From Caulobacteraceae bacterium (lineage in GTDB: Bacteria > Pseudomonadota > Alphaproteobacteria > Caulobacterales > Caulobacteraceae): DNA of 64,000 nt. Positions within the stretch are counted from its first letter, which is position 1; the number at the start of each line of letters is the position of its first letter. The notes below the pieces were generated by a model. The model made no database searches, was not told the origin of the DNA, and worked only from the letters and a program-made list of their open reading frames with translations. Shown in pieces: positions 25,911-35,424 of this stretch. Made by a program: the position numbers and the translations under genes. The stretch covers positions 62,001 through 126,000 of the forward strand of contig JAIBAU010000004.1 of the NCBI GenBank assembly GCA_019695035.1. Reading direction: 5' to 3'.

Positions 25911-26534
25911 ATGGCCGGGCTGCTGCAGAATTTCCGAAACACCATGATCGTGAGCGTGCTGCTCGCGGTGGTGATGATCTTCTCGTTCGGCCAGGCGGCG
26001 CCGGGCCACATGGACATGGCCTTCTGGCAGGCGGTCGCCCGCTGGGGCCACACCTTCTTCGGCATCCTCTGGATCGGGCTGCTGTACTACTTCAACTTCG
26101 TCCAGATCCGGAAAATGCCGGACATCCCGGCCGAGCTGAAGCCGGCCATCTCCAAGTACATCGCCCCCGAGGCGCTCTTCTGGTTCCGCTGGGCGGCCGC
26201 CTTCACCGTGCTGTTCGGCCTGATCGTGGCCTGGCTCAAGGGCGGACACGCCTACCTGGCCGAGCTGATCACCTTCGGCTTCGCCGGCGGCTACGACTCC
26301 AGCCAGGCCAGCTTCGTGCTGATGGGCGTGGGCGTGTGGCTGGCCTTCATCATGGCCTTCAACGTCTGGTTCGTGATCTGGCCGAACCAGAAGGTGGCGC
26401 TGGGCATCGTCGAGGCCGACGCCGACGCCAAGGCCAAGGCGGCCAGGACGGCCATGCTGTTCAGCCGCATCAACGTGCTGCTGTCGCTGCCGATGCTGAC
26501 GGCCATGACCATGTACCAGACGCTGTTCGGCTGA
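25911..26534 (+). CDS. urate hydroxylase PuuD-like membrane protein, membrane domain only
   Basis: A 207-residue protein with about five to six hydrophobic segments, including RWGHTFFGILWIGLLYYFNF near residue 45 and WLAFIMAFNVWFVIWPNQK near residue 145. These match the membrane domain of PuuD-type proteins (DUF989). Full PuuD also has a C-terminal cytochrome c domain, but no CxxCH is present here, so urate oxidation should not be assumed. A good Shine-Dalgarno (GAGAGGG) precedes the ATG. Confidence 0.75.
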   Translation: MAGLLQNFRNTMIVSVLLAVVMIFSFGQAAPGHMDMAFWQAVARWGHTFFGILWIGLLYYFNFVQIRKMPDIPAELKPAISKYIAPEALFWFRWAAAFTVLFGLIVAWLKGGHAYLAELITFGFAGGYDSSQASFVLMGVGVWLAFIMAFNVWFVIWPNQKVALGIVEADADAKAKAARTAMLFSRINVLLSLPMLTAMTMYQTLFG

Positions 26535-26565
26535 CGCTTCGGCCGACCGCGCGTTATGCGACAGG

Positions 26566-26593
26566 AGGGCCCGCCGCCCCGGCGGGCCCTTTC
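26566..26593 (+). terminator. intrinsic terminator after the PuuD-like gene
   Basis: Perfect 11-base stem AGGGCCCGCCG (26566-26576) with CGGCGGGCCCT (26580-26590), three-base loop, followed by a short T stretch (CCTTTCC). It lies between the PuuD-like stop and the next start, so it should limit read-through in that direction. Confidence 0.65.
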
Positions 26594-26606
26594 CATTGAA
26601 CGAGCC

Positions 26607-27317
26607 ATGAGCGACGCCGACGACATCGACGCCGAGGTCAAGACCGCCGACCCCGACCGCTGGCTGGCGGCGCGCTTCATCGCCGATCCCCGCGCTCGCG
26701 CCGACGTCGCCGCCCTCTACGCCCTGAACCACGTGGTGGCGAAGATCCCGGCCCAGGTGTCGGAGATCATGATGGGCCACATCCGGCTGGCCTGGTGGCG
26801 CGAGGCGGTCGAGGAGCTGGCGCAGGGCAAGGCCCCGCGCGCCCATCCGGTGGTCGAGGCCCTGGCCGATCCGCTGCGACGCGGAGCCTTCGATCCGGCG
26901 GCCCTGGACGCGCTGATCGACGCGCGGGCCGGCGACCTGGAGAGCGAGCCCTTCGCGGACGAGGCGGCGCTGCTCGCCCATATCGATGGCACGGACGGGC
27001 GGCTGGCGGCGCTGGCCGCGGCGCGTCTGGACGCGGCGGCCCCGGCCGAGGCGGCGGTCGAGGCGATGCGCGCCTGGGGCCTGGCCACCCTGCGACGGCC
27101 ACAGCGCCTGCCGGCGTCCTTCCCGGCTGCGGAGCTGCCGGACCGGGTGGCCGGGCGCCTGGCGGCCGCGCGCCCCGCGCTGAGAGCCCTGCCGGTGGCG
27201 GCCTTTCCCGCCGTCGCCTACGCCGCCCTCAGCCTGCCCTACGCCCGGGGGCGCCGTCCGGGTCCGTTGGAGAAGCGGTTGCGGCTGCTGGGCGCCGTCC
27301 TCAGCGGGCGCGTCTGA
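26607..27317 (+). CDS. squalene/phytoene synthase-fold protein, NDUFAF6-like (putative complex I assembly factor)
   Basis: A 236-residue all-helical protein of the trans-isoprenyl diphosphate synthase head-to-head fold. Its N-terminal half reads LYALNHVVAKIPAQVSEIMM then HIRLAWWREAVEEL, which resembles mitochondrial NDUFAF6. The two Asp-rich motifs needed for prenyl-diphosphate binding are missing: the first has NHVVAKI where DDxxD is expected, and no second one is seen. A terpenoid role is therefore unlikely. The start is the ATG at 26607; an upstream in-frame ATG lies within the terminator. Convergent with trmFO, four bases apart. Confidence 0.75.
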   Translation: MSDADDIDAEVKTADPDRWLAARFIADPRARADVAALYALNHVVAKIPAQVSEIMMGHIRLAWWREAVEELAQGKAPRAHPVVEALADPLRRGAFDPAALDALIDARAGDLESEPFADEAALLAHIDGTDGRLAALAAARLDAAAPAEAAVEAMRAWGLATLRRPQRLPASFPAAELPDRVAGRLAAARPALRALPVAAFPAVAYAALSLPYARGRRPGPLEKRLRLLGAVLSGRV

Positions 27318-27321
27318 TCGC

Positions 27322-28725
27322 TCAGGCCGGCTCCAGCTCGGCGGCCGCCTTCCAGGCGTCCAGGGCCGCGAGCGCCCGCACGCTCATGGCGCGCTTCTTG
27401 GCCCGGGTGCGGTCGCGAGGGGGCAGCTTGCGGCCCTCGTGGTCGAAGCGCGGCGCCTCCATCGGCGGCAGCAGACCGTAGTTGATGTTCATCGGCTGGA
27501 ACTTGCCGCCTTCCAGGTGGCCGCCGGTGATGTGGTTGACCAGGGCTCCCAGCGCCGTCTCCACCGGCGGGGCGGCCAGCGGGCGGCCCAGTCGCTCGGC
27601 GGCGGCGAGGCGGCCGGTCACCAGGCCCATGGCGGCGCTCTCGACGTAGCCTTCGACGCCGGTGACCTGGCCGGCGAAGCGCAGGCGCGGCATGGCCCTC
27701 AGTCGCAACTGGCCGTCCAGCAGGCGAGGCGAGTTCAGGAAGGTGTTGCGGTGCAGGCCCCCCAGCCGGGCGAACTGGGCCTCGCCCAGGCCCGGGATGG
27801 TGCGGAAGATCTCCGTCTGCGCCCCGTGCTTCAGCTTGGTCTGGAAGCCGACCATATTGAACAGGGTGCCCAGCGCATTGTCCTGGCGAAGCTGGACCAC
27901 GGCGTAGGGGCGGCTGTCGGGGTCGTGCGGGTTGGTCAGGCCGACCGGCTTCATGGGTCCGAAGCGCAGGGTCTCGCGGCCCCGCTCGGCCATCACCTCG
28001 ATGGGCAGGCATGCCTCGAAGTAGGGGACGTTCTCCCAGTCCTTGAACTCGGCCTTGGGGCCGGCCAACAGGGCGTCGACGAAGGCCTCGTACTGCTCCC
28101 GGCTCATCGGGCAGTTGATGTAGGCGGCCTTGTCTCCCGACGGCCCCTCCTTGTCGTAGCGCGACTGACGCCAGGCCACGCCCATGTCGATGGAGTCGGC
28201 GTGGACGATGGGGGCGATGGCGTCGAAGAAGGAAAGGCTCTCCTCGCCGGTCAGGGCCAGGACGGCGTCGGCCAGGGCCGGCGAGGTGAGGGGCCCGGTG
28301 GCGACGATCACGCAGTCCCAGTCGGCGGGCGGCAGGCCGGCGATCTCGCCACGCTCGACGGCGACCAGCGGGTGGGCCTCGAGGCGGGCGGTGACGGCGG
28401 CCGAGAAGGCCTCGCGATCCACGGCCAGGGCGCCCCCGGCCGGGACCTGGCAGGCGTCGCCGCTGGCCATGATCAGCGACCCCAGCCGCCGCATCTCGGC
28501 GTGCAACAGGCCGACGGCGTTGTATTCCCAGTCGTCGGACCGGAACGAGTTGGAGCAGACCAGCTCGGCCAGGCCGTCGGTCTGGTGCGCCGCGGTGCCG
28601 CGGACCGGGCGCATCTCGTGCAGCACCACCGGCACGCCGGCGTTGGCGATCTGCCACGCGGCCTCGGATCCGGCCAGGCCGCCGCCGATGACGTGAACGG
28701 GCCGGGAAGGGCTGGAAGGGTTCAT
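27322..28725 (-). CDS. trmFO: methylenetetrahydrofolate-tRNA-(uracil-5-)-methyltransferase
   Basis: A 467-residue folate- and FAD-dependent enzyme that makes ribothymidine at position 54 of tRNA. The N-terminal FAD-binding loop is [18 protein letters not shown]. Family segments include [41 protein letters not shown] and MKPVGLTNP. Length is normal. The start at 28725 opposes the membrane-protein cluster, separated by a 232-base intergenic stretch in which I see no gene. Confidence 0.95.
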
Positions 28726-28957: not shown

Positions 28958-29911
28958 ATGGGGACGTTCTCGATCGGGGAAGCGTACAGGGCGGGCTTTG
29001 GCCTGGTCGCGCGCAAACCCTTGCATGTCCTGGTTTGGGGCGTGGTCTATACGCTGCTGCGCGTACTCCCGTACGTGCTCATGGTCTGGCTCGTCGGGCC
29101 GGACCTGTTCAAGGCCTGGGGCGATTTCGTCGCCAACGCCGCCGCCGGCGGCGATCCTGGCGACCTCAGCGAATTCACCCGCACCATGCAGAACGTGAAC
29201 TCGTTTGAATCCCTGGGCTTCCTGACCAGCATCCTGGCCGCGGCGATCTTCAACGCCGCGGTGTTCCGCACCCTGTTGCGGCCGTCCGACGGCGGCTTCC
29301 TGGGCCTGAAGCTGGGCATGGATGAACTCTGGCAGGGCCTGCTCTACCTCGTCATGGTCATCCTGGGCTGCATCTTCGTCATCCTGGCGGCTCTGGTCGG
29401 CGTGCTGGCGGGCGGGATCCTGTTCTTCATCGGCAAGGCCGTCGGCGGAAACGTCCTGGGCGGCTTCGGCATCGCCCTGGCCGTCATCGCCACCCTGGGC
29501 GTGGTGCTTTGGGTCATCGTCCGCTTCTCGCTGGCCGGCCCAGCCACCTTCGCCAACCGCAGCTTCCAGCTCTTCGAGAGCTGGACCCTGACCAAGGGCA
29601 ACGCCTGGGGGCTGTTCGGCCTCACGGTGCTCCTGATCGCCACCATCCTCGCCGCCGAGATCGTGCTCGGCGTCGCCATGCTCAGCATCTTCGTCTCGCT
29701 CGGCAGCACCGAGGCGCTCAGCCCGGACGCTATCGAGGCCTTCTTCCAGCAGCCCGCCGACGTGTGGATGCTGCAGGCCACGCCCTGGCTGGTGGGGGGC
29801 ACGCTGGTCGGCGCCCTGCTCAGCGGGGCGATCTACACCATCCTGATGGCGCCCTACGCCTCAGCCTACGCTCAACTCACGGCAACCCCAGCTCCGGCTT
29901 CGGCCGTCTAG
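28958..29911 (+). CDS. multi-spanning membrane protein, paralogue 1 of 3
   Basis: A 317-residue membrane protein with about six to seven hydrophobic segments. It shares with its two downstream neighbours an EAYRAGF-like N-terminus, FRTLLRPSDGGFLGLKLGMD in the middle, VRFSLAGPATFA, and WTLTKGNAWGLF. This architecture resembles the membrane domain attached to some glycerophosphodiester phosphodiesterases and YciC-type proteins, but no enzyme domain is present. The ATG at 28958 is chosen to align with the paralogues, although the frame is open to 28892. The next gene starts 11 bases after its stop. Confidence 0.75.
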   Translation: MGTFSIGEAYRAGFGLVARKPLHVLVWGVVYTLLRVLPYVLMVWLVGPDLFKAWGDFVANAAAGGDPGDLSEFTRTMQNVNSFESLGFLTSILAAAIFNAAVFRTLLRPSDGGFLGLKLGMDELWQGLLYLVMVILGCIFVILAALVGVLAGGILFFIGKAVGGNVLGGFGIALAVIATLGVVLWVIVRFSLAGPATFANRSFQLFESWTLTKGNAWGLFGLTVLLIATILAAEIVLGVAMLSIFVSLGSTEALSPDAIEAFFQQPADVWMLQATPWLVGGTLVGALLSGAIYTILMAPYASAYAQLTATPAPASAV

Positions 29912-29922
29912 GAGACCGACCC

Positions 29923-31491
29923 ATGTTTTCGGCTACGCACGCCTCGCTCGAAGGCTTTCGCATCATCGGCAGGCGCCCGATCAGCATGATCGTGTGGACC
30001 ATCGTCTACACGCTGCTGTCCTTCGGCTTCATCGCCGGCGTCTGCTATTTCCTCGGCTCGACCTTCATCGGCGAGATCATCCGGCACCACGACGACCCGA
30101 CCTGGGCGCGCGACCTGGATATCGACAACTGGCAGGACGCCTGGCGCTACTTCGGGGGCCTGTTCCAGGTCATCGCGCTGCTGATACCCGCCACGCTCCT
30201 GCTCGGCGCGGTGCAGATGAGCGCGGTGTTCCGCACCGTGCTGCGACCCAAGGAGCGGGGCTTCGCCTACCTCAAGCTGGGCGCCGATGAACTGCGTCAG
30301 GTCGGCCTGATGATCGTCCTGCTGCTGCTGTTCGCGGTGGTGCTCTGCGGCGGCGTGCTCGGCCTGATCTTCGGCCTGAAGGCCGCCGGCCTCGAGGAGG
30401 GGATGTCGGCCCTGCTCGCCGTTCTGGGCGGCGTGCTCCTGGTGGTGCTGGCGGTGTGGCTGTCGATCCGGCTGTCCCTGGCCGCGCCCGCGACCTTCGC
30501 CCGCAAGCGCCTGACGGTCTTCGGCGCCTGGGGTTTGACCCGGGGTCACTTCTGGGGTCTGCTCGGCATGTACATCCTGTCGGCGATCTTCACGATCATC
30601 GTCACCGTCGTCATCGACATGATCGCCCGCGCCGTCGGCGGCGCCATGGGCTTCTCGATGGCCTCGCTGATCGACGGCGACCAGCTCGCCATCGATTTCG
30701 CCAATTTCACCTGGGACCAGGCTTGGACCCTGTTCGGCTACGGCGGCCTCGCCTACGTGATGCTGTCCATGCTGGGCAACACCTTCCAGCTGGCCCTGAC
30801 CTACGGCCCGCAGGCGGCCGCCTATCGTGACCTGTCGGGCGGCTCGGCCCCGGCGCCGGAAGCCGCAGCTGCGGCGCCCCCGGCGGATCACGGCGACGGA
30901 CACGGCGGCGACGGTCATGGCGGCCACGGCGGTGAGGCGGCCCTCGCGGCTGCGGCCGTCGCCGGCGGCGCGGCCGCCGTGGCGGCGTCCCACGCCCACG
31001 CCGAGGATCACGGGCACGCGGCCCCGGCCGCCGACCATGGCCACGCCGATCATGGGCACGCGGCGGACCATGGGCACGGCGATCATGGGCATGGCGACCA
31101 CGGTCACGCCGCGGCCGACCATGGTCACGGAGACCACGGACACGCGGCTGCCGACCACGGTCATGCCGACCACGGTCATGCGGACCACGCCCACGCCGCC
31201 GCCGATCACGGGCACGGCGATCACCACGCCGCCGCCGACCACGGTCACGCCGATCATGGCCATGGCGCAGCCGACCACGCTCCCGCGGCCGACCATGGAC
31301 ATGCGGATCACGGGCATGAGGACCATGGCCACGCCGCCGCCGCCGACCACGGTCATGGAGATCACGGGCACGGCGATCACGGGCACGGCGATCACGGGCA
31401 CGGCGATCACGGTCACGCGGACCAGGGGCACGCGGACCATGGCGCCTCGGCGCATCCGGCCGATCCACACGACCACGGCGGCCACCACTAG
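29923..31491 (+). CDS. multi-spanning membrane protein with long histidine-rich tail, paralogue 2 of 3
   Basis: A 522-residue protein in two parts. Residues 1 to about 310 form a membrane domain of the same family as its neighbours (SAVFRTVLRPKERGFAYLKL, IRLSLAAPATFA, WGLTRGHFWGLL). Residues 323-522 are a low-complexity tail built from DHGH, GDHGH and AADHGHADHG units with about 60 histidines by hand count, interrupted by one Ala-rich stretch. Such His/Asp tails in general bind divalent metals (Zn, Ni, Co), so metal buffering, sensing or transport is a reasonable inference. The tail topology (in or out) is not decided. The family is unnamed as far as I can tell. Confidence 0.8.
   Translation: MFSATHASLEGFRIIGRRPISMIVWTIVYTLLSFGFIAGVCYFLGSTFIGEIIRHHDDPTWARDLDIDNWQDAWRYFGGLFQVIALLIPATLLLGAVQMSAVFRTVLRPKERGFAYLKLGADELRQVGLMIVLLLLFAVVLCGGVLGLIFGLKAAGLEEGMSALLAVLGGVLLVVLAVWLSIRLSLAAPATFARKRLTVFGAWGLTRGHFWGLLGMYILSAIFTIIVTVVIDMIARAVGGAMGFSMASLIDGDQLAIDFANFTWDQAWTLFGYGGLAYVMLSMLGNTFQLALTYGPQAAAYRDLSGGSAPAPEAAAAAPPADHGDGHGGDGHGGHGGEAALAAAAVAGGAAAVAASHAHAEDHGHAAPAADHGHADHGHAADHGHGDHGHGDHGHAAADHGHGDHGHAAADHGHADHGHADHAHAAADHGHGDHHAAADHGHADHGHGAADHAPAADHGHADHGHEDHGHAAAADHGHGDHGHGDHGHGDHGHGDHGHADQGHADHGASAHPADPHDHGGHH
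31360..31419 (+). repeat. 15-base tandem repeat inside the His-rich tail
   Basis: Four consecutive copies of a GATCACGGGCACGGC unit (the last two-to-three bases and one internal base vary), each encoding DHGHG. The wider region 30889-31488 contains many diverged copies. Alternating use of CAC/CAT and GGG/GGT codons in older copies suggests growth by slippage followed by divergence, with the block here the youngest. Confidence 0.8.
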
Positions 31492-31617: not shown

Positions 31618-32529
31618 ATGGCGTTTTCGCCCACCGAAGCCGCATTCGAAGGCTTTCGCCTGACCCGCGAGAAGCCCCGGATCATCGGCTGGTGGACCCT
31701 TCTCGCCCTGGTTCTCCAGCTCGGCCTCGGCGTGATCATCGCCGCCACCGCCGGGCCCGAATTCCAGCAGCTGCAGACCTTCCTGAACGATCCGGTGAAC
31801 AACGCCGACATCGCGGAGAGTCTCGGGCCCAAGATGGTCCTGTTCGAAGCCGCGGCCCTGCCGCTCGTCCTGGTGATCAGCGCCATCTTCGCCTGCGCCG
31901 CCTATCGCAGCGTGCTGGACCCGGCGCAGTCCCGCTTCGGCTACCTGCGGATCGGCCGGGACGAGGGCCGCATGCTGCTGCTCTACCTGCTGCTGCTGGC
32001 GATCTTCATGGGAGCCATGTTCGGGGCCATTCTGCTGGCCGGCCTGGTGATGGGTCTGCTGATGTCGTCGGGGAGCGCCGCCATGGGCGCGGTGGGCGGC
32101 TTCGGCGCCTTCCTGGTCCTGGGCGCCGTCCTGGTCTTTTTCGGCGTGCGCCTGTCGCTGGCGGGACCGATGACCTTCGCCGTCGGCAAGGTGCTGGTCG
32201 CACCGGCGTGGAAGATGACCCGGGGCCGATTCTGGAGCCTGCTGGTGGCCTACGTCCTGTCCTGGATCATGGCCTTCGTGGTCCAGCTCCTGGGCGGCGC
32301 GATCTTCACCGCCGTGGCCATGGCCGCGACCGGCAACCTCGGGGCCTACCAGAAGGCGGGGGCGATGGAGTTCAGCTCGATCGCCGAGGTGTTCACGCCC
32401 GAGCACCTGCTGTTCGCGGTGTCCGCCGCCGTCCTCGCCGCCTTGCAGAACGCCATCGTGCTGACCCCATCGGCCGTGGCCTACCGCGCCCTGGCCTCCG
32501 AGGAGCCCCGGGCGGACACCTTCGACTAG
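31618..32529 (+). CDS. multi-spanning membrane protein, paralogue 3 of 3
   Basis: A 303-residue membrane protein of the same family as the two upstream genes: AAFEGFRLTREKP at the N-terminus, CAAYRSVLDPAQSRFGYLRI, VRLSLAGPMTFA and WKMTRGRFWSLL. It has about six hydrophobic segments and a short charged C-terminus with no histidine tail. It is convergent with uvrA, with a 3-base gap. No enzyme or transport motif is visible. Confidence 0.75.
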   Translation: MAFSPTEAAFEGFRLTREKPRIIGWWTLLALVLQLGLGVIIAATAGPEFQQLQTFLNDPVNNADIAESLGPKMVLFEAAALPLVLVISAIFACAAYRSVLDPAQSRFGYLRIGRDEGRMLLLYLLLLAIFMGAMFGAILLAGLVMGLLMSSGSAAMGAVGGFGAFLVLGAVLVFFGVRLSLAGPMTFAVGKVLVAPAWKMTRGRFWSLLVAYVLSWIMAFVVQLLGGAIFTAVAMAATGNLGAYQKAGAMEFSSIAEVFTPEHLLFAVSAAVLAALQNAIVLTPSAVAYRALASEEPRADTFD

Positions 32530-32532
32530 GCG

Positions 32533-35424
<2,892 letters not shown>

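Follow-up and report, generated by a model that had tools for sequence, protein, structure and literature searches.

Gene B of the window, the 64,000-nucleotide stretch of Caulobacteraceae DNA analysed here, encodes a membrane protein with a 200-residue histidine-rich tail which, at a probability of about one half, would serve as a membrane-tethered cytoplasmic metal-binding or buffering element on an otherwise ordinary permease-like protein. The open reading frame (29923-31491, forward strand) specifies 522 residues plus a stop codon. The membrane domain, residues 1-322 (29923-30888), is predicted to consist of six long helices with a CysZ-like fold and has only 4 histidines, while the tail, residues 323-522 (30889-31488), contains 60 His, 52 Ala, 45 Gly and 30 Asp arranged in (A/G)DHGH repeats, with DHGH occurring 21 times, 7 of them as GDHGH. 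This bears out an earlier note on the same DNA, which had described a tail of this length with about 60 histidines and DHGH/GDHGH repeats on a membrane protein. Histidine and aspartate together make up 45% of the 200 residues, the enrichment by which metal-binding low-complexity tails are recognized. Antisense open reading frames across the tail were rejected as genes, being mirror artefacts of the repeat.

Gene B lies between two paralogues on the same strand, A (28958-29911) and C (31618-32529; predicted fold as in B), which are 26-31% identical and both end without a histidine tail, as the earlier note had said. The stop codon of A lies 11 nt upstream of the B start, and a Shine-Dalgarno-like AGGAGA read from the sequence (29910-29915, forward strand), 7 nt upstream of the B ATG, overlaps it, which makes joint transcription and translation of the two genes very likely. 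The trio is flanked by two conserved neighbours on the reverse strand, which we read by sequence family as trmFO (27322-28725) and uvrA (32533-35421, start approximate). Of 299 genomes from the taxonomic family of the source DNA, 290 contain homologues of the membrane domain, for which the site between trmFO and uvrA is conserved; the neighbour was read as trmFO beside 42 fetched homologue loci and as uvrA beside 50, many of these loci being too short to reach both. The source genome has exactly three family copies, all at this locus. In a tree of 126 sequences, A adjoins the first gene (support 0.9) and B the middle gene (G003, G024 and G262; support 0.91) of A-B-C trios of genus g4, and from these matching placements the trio order looks old. 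A contig search for relatives returned only two distant actinobacterial matches. Elsewhere in the window, an Urate oxidase N-terminal (PuuD-like) membrane protein is encoded at 25911-26534, adjoining a squalene/phytoene-synthase-like gene (26556-27317).

The membrane domain was compared with known families by sequence and by predicted structure. Pfam EI24 (PF07264) matched B over residues 10-150 with an E-value of 0.0013 and 19.3 bits (cut-off 32), and GPDPase_memb (PF10110) with 16.3 bits against 29.6, so that neither gathering score was reached. GPDPase_memb, matched in 7 of 28 relatives (best E 8e-6), is the best sequence-level match of the B family, although B has no attached phosphodiesterase domain; a W-x-L-T-R-G-x-F-W motif is common to the B family and its actinobacterial relatives (L004, L005). 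AlphaFold models of B (mean pLDDT 70.7) and C (mean pLDDT 77.9), which are of moderate confidence and, being made with different lead sequences from one thin five-sequence alignment, not fully independent, both ranked CysZ structures (PF07264; PDB 3tx3, 6d9z, 6d79) first by fold, with Z of 14.2 and 13.5 for B and 14.9, 14.5 and 13.3 for C over 207-228 aligned residues. Choline transporter-like proteins (CTL1/PNS1) came next (Z 11-13), although these are eukaryotic, larger and without a sequence match, and the following rows did not exceed 7.3. Foldseek by itself found nothing significant in the PDB or among viral models, and a sequence-profile search of solved structures yielded no more than chance hits to a chemotaxis receptor. 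The membrane domain is best seen as permease-like, and A, B and C are probably six-helix inner-membrane proteins of a CysZ/EI24, GPDPase_memb and choline-transporter-like fold, acting as permeases or in lipid or solute handling. The matched CysZ structures lack the long histidine tail. The absence of a known transporter motif, as previously stated, thus holds at the level of sequence but not at that of the predicted fold.

These comparisons also bear on whether B could be a dedicated metal transporter or sensor whose tail acts as a metal-loading or gating domain, in the way that CDF and ZIP transporters use their histidine-rich cytoplasmic loops. When the tail was masked, as the earlier note had proposed, neither Pfam nor NCBIfam gave a CDF, ZIP or other known metal transporter family at E-values up to 1. 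The near-invariant or invariant core residues of the family (W25, R104, P109, G120, E123, R183 and W203) include no conserved His or Cys, the known substrates of the CysZ and CTL folds are sulfate and choline, and homologues without a tail are the rule, all of which makes such a dedicated role highly improbable.

With respect to topology, the loops on the side of the N- and C-termini carry a mean of 13.1 Lys plus Arg against 1.8 on the other side, as counted with the model helices, and the sign of this bias was identical in all of the 126 homologues. The positive-inside rule then predicts that B has its two ends, and hence the tail, in the cytoplasm. The authors of the CysZ structures described a like charge bias for the head of CysZ (PMC5967866), which would be cytoplasmic by charge as in B. 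The charge bias speaks against a dual topology of B like that seen in the CysZ crystal.

In about 120 homologues examined, a sample which includes the long open frames of the family, C-terminal extensions reached at most about 50 residues and held 0-2 His, with one exception. This exception is a B-type gene of G007 (genus g8) with a short histidine extension ending in GHDDHGHADPHDDSHGRDDGHGH; it lies near B in the tree with weak support (0.3), and B-type genes are possibly predisposed to gain a tail. Since homologues are tail-less as a rule, the long tail is on this comparison a gain of the B lineage, where the genus of the source DNA is represented by one genome in the sample, and it is dispensable for the core function of the domain. 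The same rarity would be expected if the tail were a nearly neutral low-complexity expansion tolerated at free C-termini, with metal binding incidental. Consistent with this alternative, tail length differs between relatives, and a regular tandem block near the end of the tail (31344-31432, forward strand; 15-nt unit, 5.9 copies), the most regular in it, points to slippage that is still ongoing. Against it, synonymous codons appear randomised between repeats: codon identity at same-amino-acid positions five codons apart was 0.532, where shuffling the codons gave an expectation of 0.475 (P 0.14); with the terminal block left out, the observed value was 0.462 and the random one 0.465. The amino acid register was kept, with a repeat pN/pS of 0.48 at lag 5 versus 0.59-0.91 at other lags and a nonsynonymous drop specific to the five-codon register, in a test which is lenient because the repeat pattern itself defines the register. 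Judged by its codons, the tail is thus not fresh DNA slippage, and the persistence of a protein pattern over randomised synonymous sites suggests an old repeat and selection on the protein. A like composition on several unrelated carriers, nearly always predicted to be cytoplasmic, also weighs against neutral expansion, which we consider rather unlikely.

The distribution of the repeat on other proteins was followed with the DNA pattern for DHGHxDHGH. In the source genome the pattern occurred 12 times, always inside gene B, and the reversed-pattern control occurred 0 times in every genome searched; this abundance is therefore not due to chance. The pattern was present in 38 of 299 genomes of the family, in 4 of 119 from other families of the order, and, in a sample of the class, in 5 of about 237 from outside the family. 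The 40 family proteins that carry it are NuoL (18), a lipoprotein (11), LepB (5), CtaD (2), and one each of DUF998, CobW, RcnB and the gene B protein. Of these 40, 38 are membrane proteins whose stretch is predicted to face the cytoplasm. The side was inferred for LepB, the lipoprotein and DUF998 from the order of signal, helix and charges, for NuoL and CtaD it is that of the known structures of complex I and the oxidase, and for B it follows from the charge bias. Carriers outside the family, identified by Pfam on one representative each and otherwise by reading the sequence, were ZnuA (3), ZrgA (2), NuoL (2), CoxG-like proteins (2) and CDF (1). Beyond inner-membrane carriers, the pattern was found only on metal-handling proteins, namely CDF, ZrgA, ZnuA, CobW and RcnB. 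The segments of these five are of the same DHGH/DHGHxDHGH type as the B tail; unlike B, their core protein handles metal and the segments are shorter or periplasmic.

The TM13-14 loop of NuoL and the N-termini of LepB and CtaD in this family resemble the B tail in sequence type, inner-membrane carrier and cytoplasmic side, but the carriers are unrelated to B and the stretch is a loop or N-terminal rather than C-terminal. A short form of the histidine-rich loop is seen in Paracoccus NuoL (8qby). Individual carriers varied in form. The DUF998 membrane protein (L037/L095; G091:C1, ~578.7 kb) has a C-terminal histidine tail and 57 His in its reading frame, about as many as B. LepB, signal peptidase I, has a long histidine-rich cytoplasmic N-terminus in five relatives of genus g3 (L038-L042), with 46-63 His per reading frame. 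The lipoprotein, from eleven genomes of genus g22 (L047, L050, L054-L061, L094), has one transmembrane helix and a histidine-rich C-terminal tail and matched no Pfam family, and in the CoxG-like proteins (L163 and L164, from G450 and G578) the DHGH stretch directly precedes a C-terminal membrane anchor. The source genome also has shorter cases, in NuoL and at the N-termini of two further proteins, a single-helix protein on C11 and a membrane protein on C4 (L066/L174; G000:C4, ~25.5 kb). The C4 protein has no Pfam family, and its relatives lack the histidine-rich N-terminus, which again indicates a lineage-specific gain. On these comparisons, histidine tails arose on several unrelated membrane proteins of one bacterial family. 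Searches of the open-access literature on histidine-rich NuoL, histidine-rich alphaproteobacterial inner-membrane proteins and related subjects turned up no account of the pattern, and as far as they show the recurrent habit of this family is undescribed.

The identity of the commonest carriers raises the question of whether the tail acts on protons rather than metal, as a pH or proton buffer, a proton-collecting surface at the inner membrane face, or else as a self-association element which clusters proteins. Imidazole is a buffer near neutral pH, and the commonest family carriers, NuoL and in two cases CtaD, belong to proton pumps. However, LepB, DUF998 and the B protein are not proton pumps, and the only other proteins with the pattern, beyond the membrane set, are metal proteins, so that we regard these functions as distinctly unlikely.

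Metal binding by the B tail in vitro is well supported by its composition and by the occurrence of the pattern on CDF, ZnuA, ZrgA, CobW and RcnB, and we hold it to be very probable. A published survey associates prokaryotic low-complexity regions enriched in His and Asp with Ni, Co and metal-transport proteins (PMC6821194). The tail is predicted to be cytoplasmic, is rich in ligands, and has counterparts on unrelated carriers and, apart from these, on metal proteins, which argues for a metal-binding element independent of its carrier. We infer the following mechanism, in which the binding, the identity of the metal and buffering as the selected role are each conditional. In this lineage B has acquired a 200-residue cytoplasmic (A/G)DHGH tail, presumably disordered, that would be a reversible ligand of Zn(II), Ni(II), Co(II) or Cu, taking up an excess of these at the inner membrane surface and releasing them when the free level falls. 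The tail would thus be a metal sponge or buffer that works irrespective of the protein carrying it; that such buffering was selected is about evenly balanced.

No metal genes were found directly beside gene B, and no Zur-type site (GTTA-N5-TAAC, taken from PMC4176598, with one mismatch allowed) was found within the window. The metal reading of the earlier note is supported with respect to binding by the tail, which behaves as a portable add-on and not as part of a dedicated transporter. Its further suggestion of an undescribed membrane metal-handling system was not upheld, as the domain belongs to a widespread permease-like family which is almost always tail-less and has no conserved His or Cys ligands, and the locus has neither neighbouring metal genes nor a Zur-type site in the window.

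Histidine-rich segments are commonly taken as a sign that their carrier handles metal. The carriers described here share little beyond their location, and their tails are gained and lost among relatives, so that the interest lies in the recurrence on unrelated carriers and not in B alone. As a tentative proposal, with the odds clearly against it, this family may coat the cytoplasmic face of many unrelated inner-membrane proteins (NuoL of complex I, CtaD of the oxidase, LepB, DUF998, a lipoprotein and the B protein) with His/Asp tails, each gained independently, which would jointly make up a membrane-associated layer buffering metal or protons, as a selected trait of the lineage and not of any single protein. 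If the tails do act as such buffers at the membrane, they would constitute a distributed layer of homeostasis which is invisible to annotation by carrier family.
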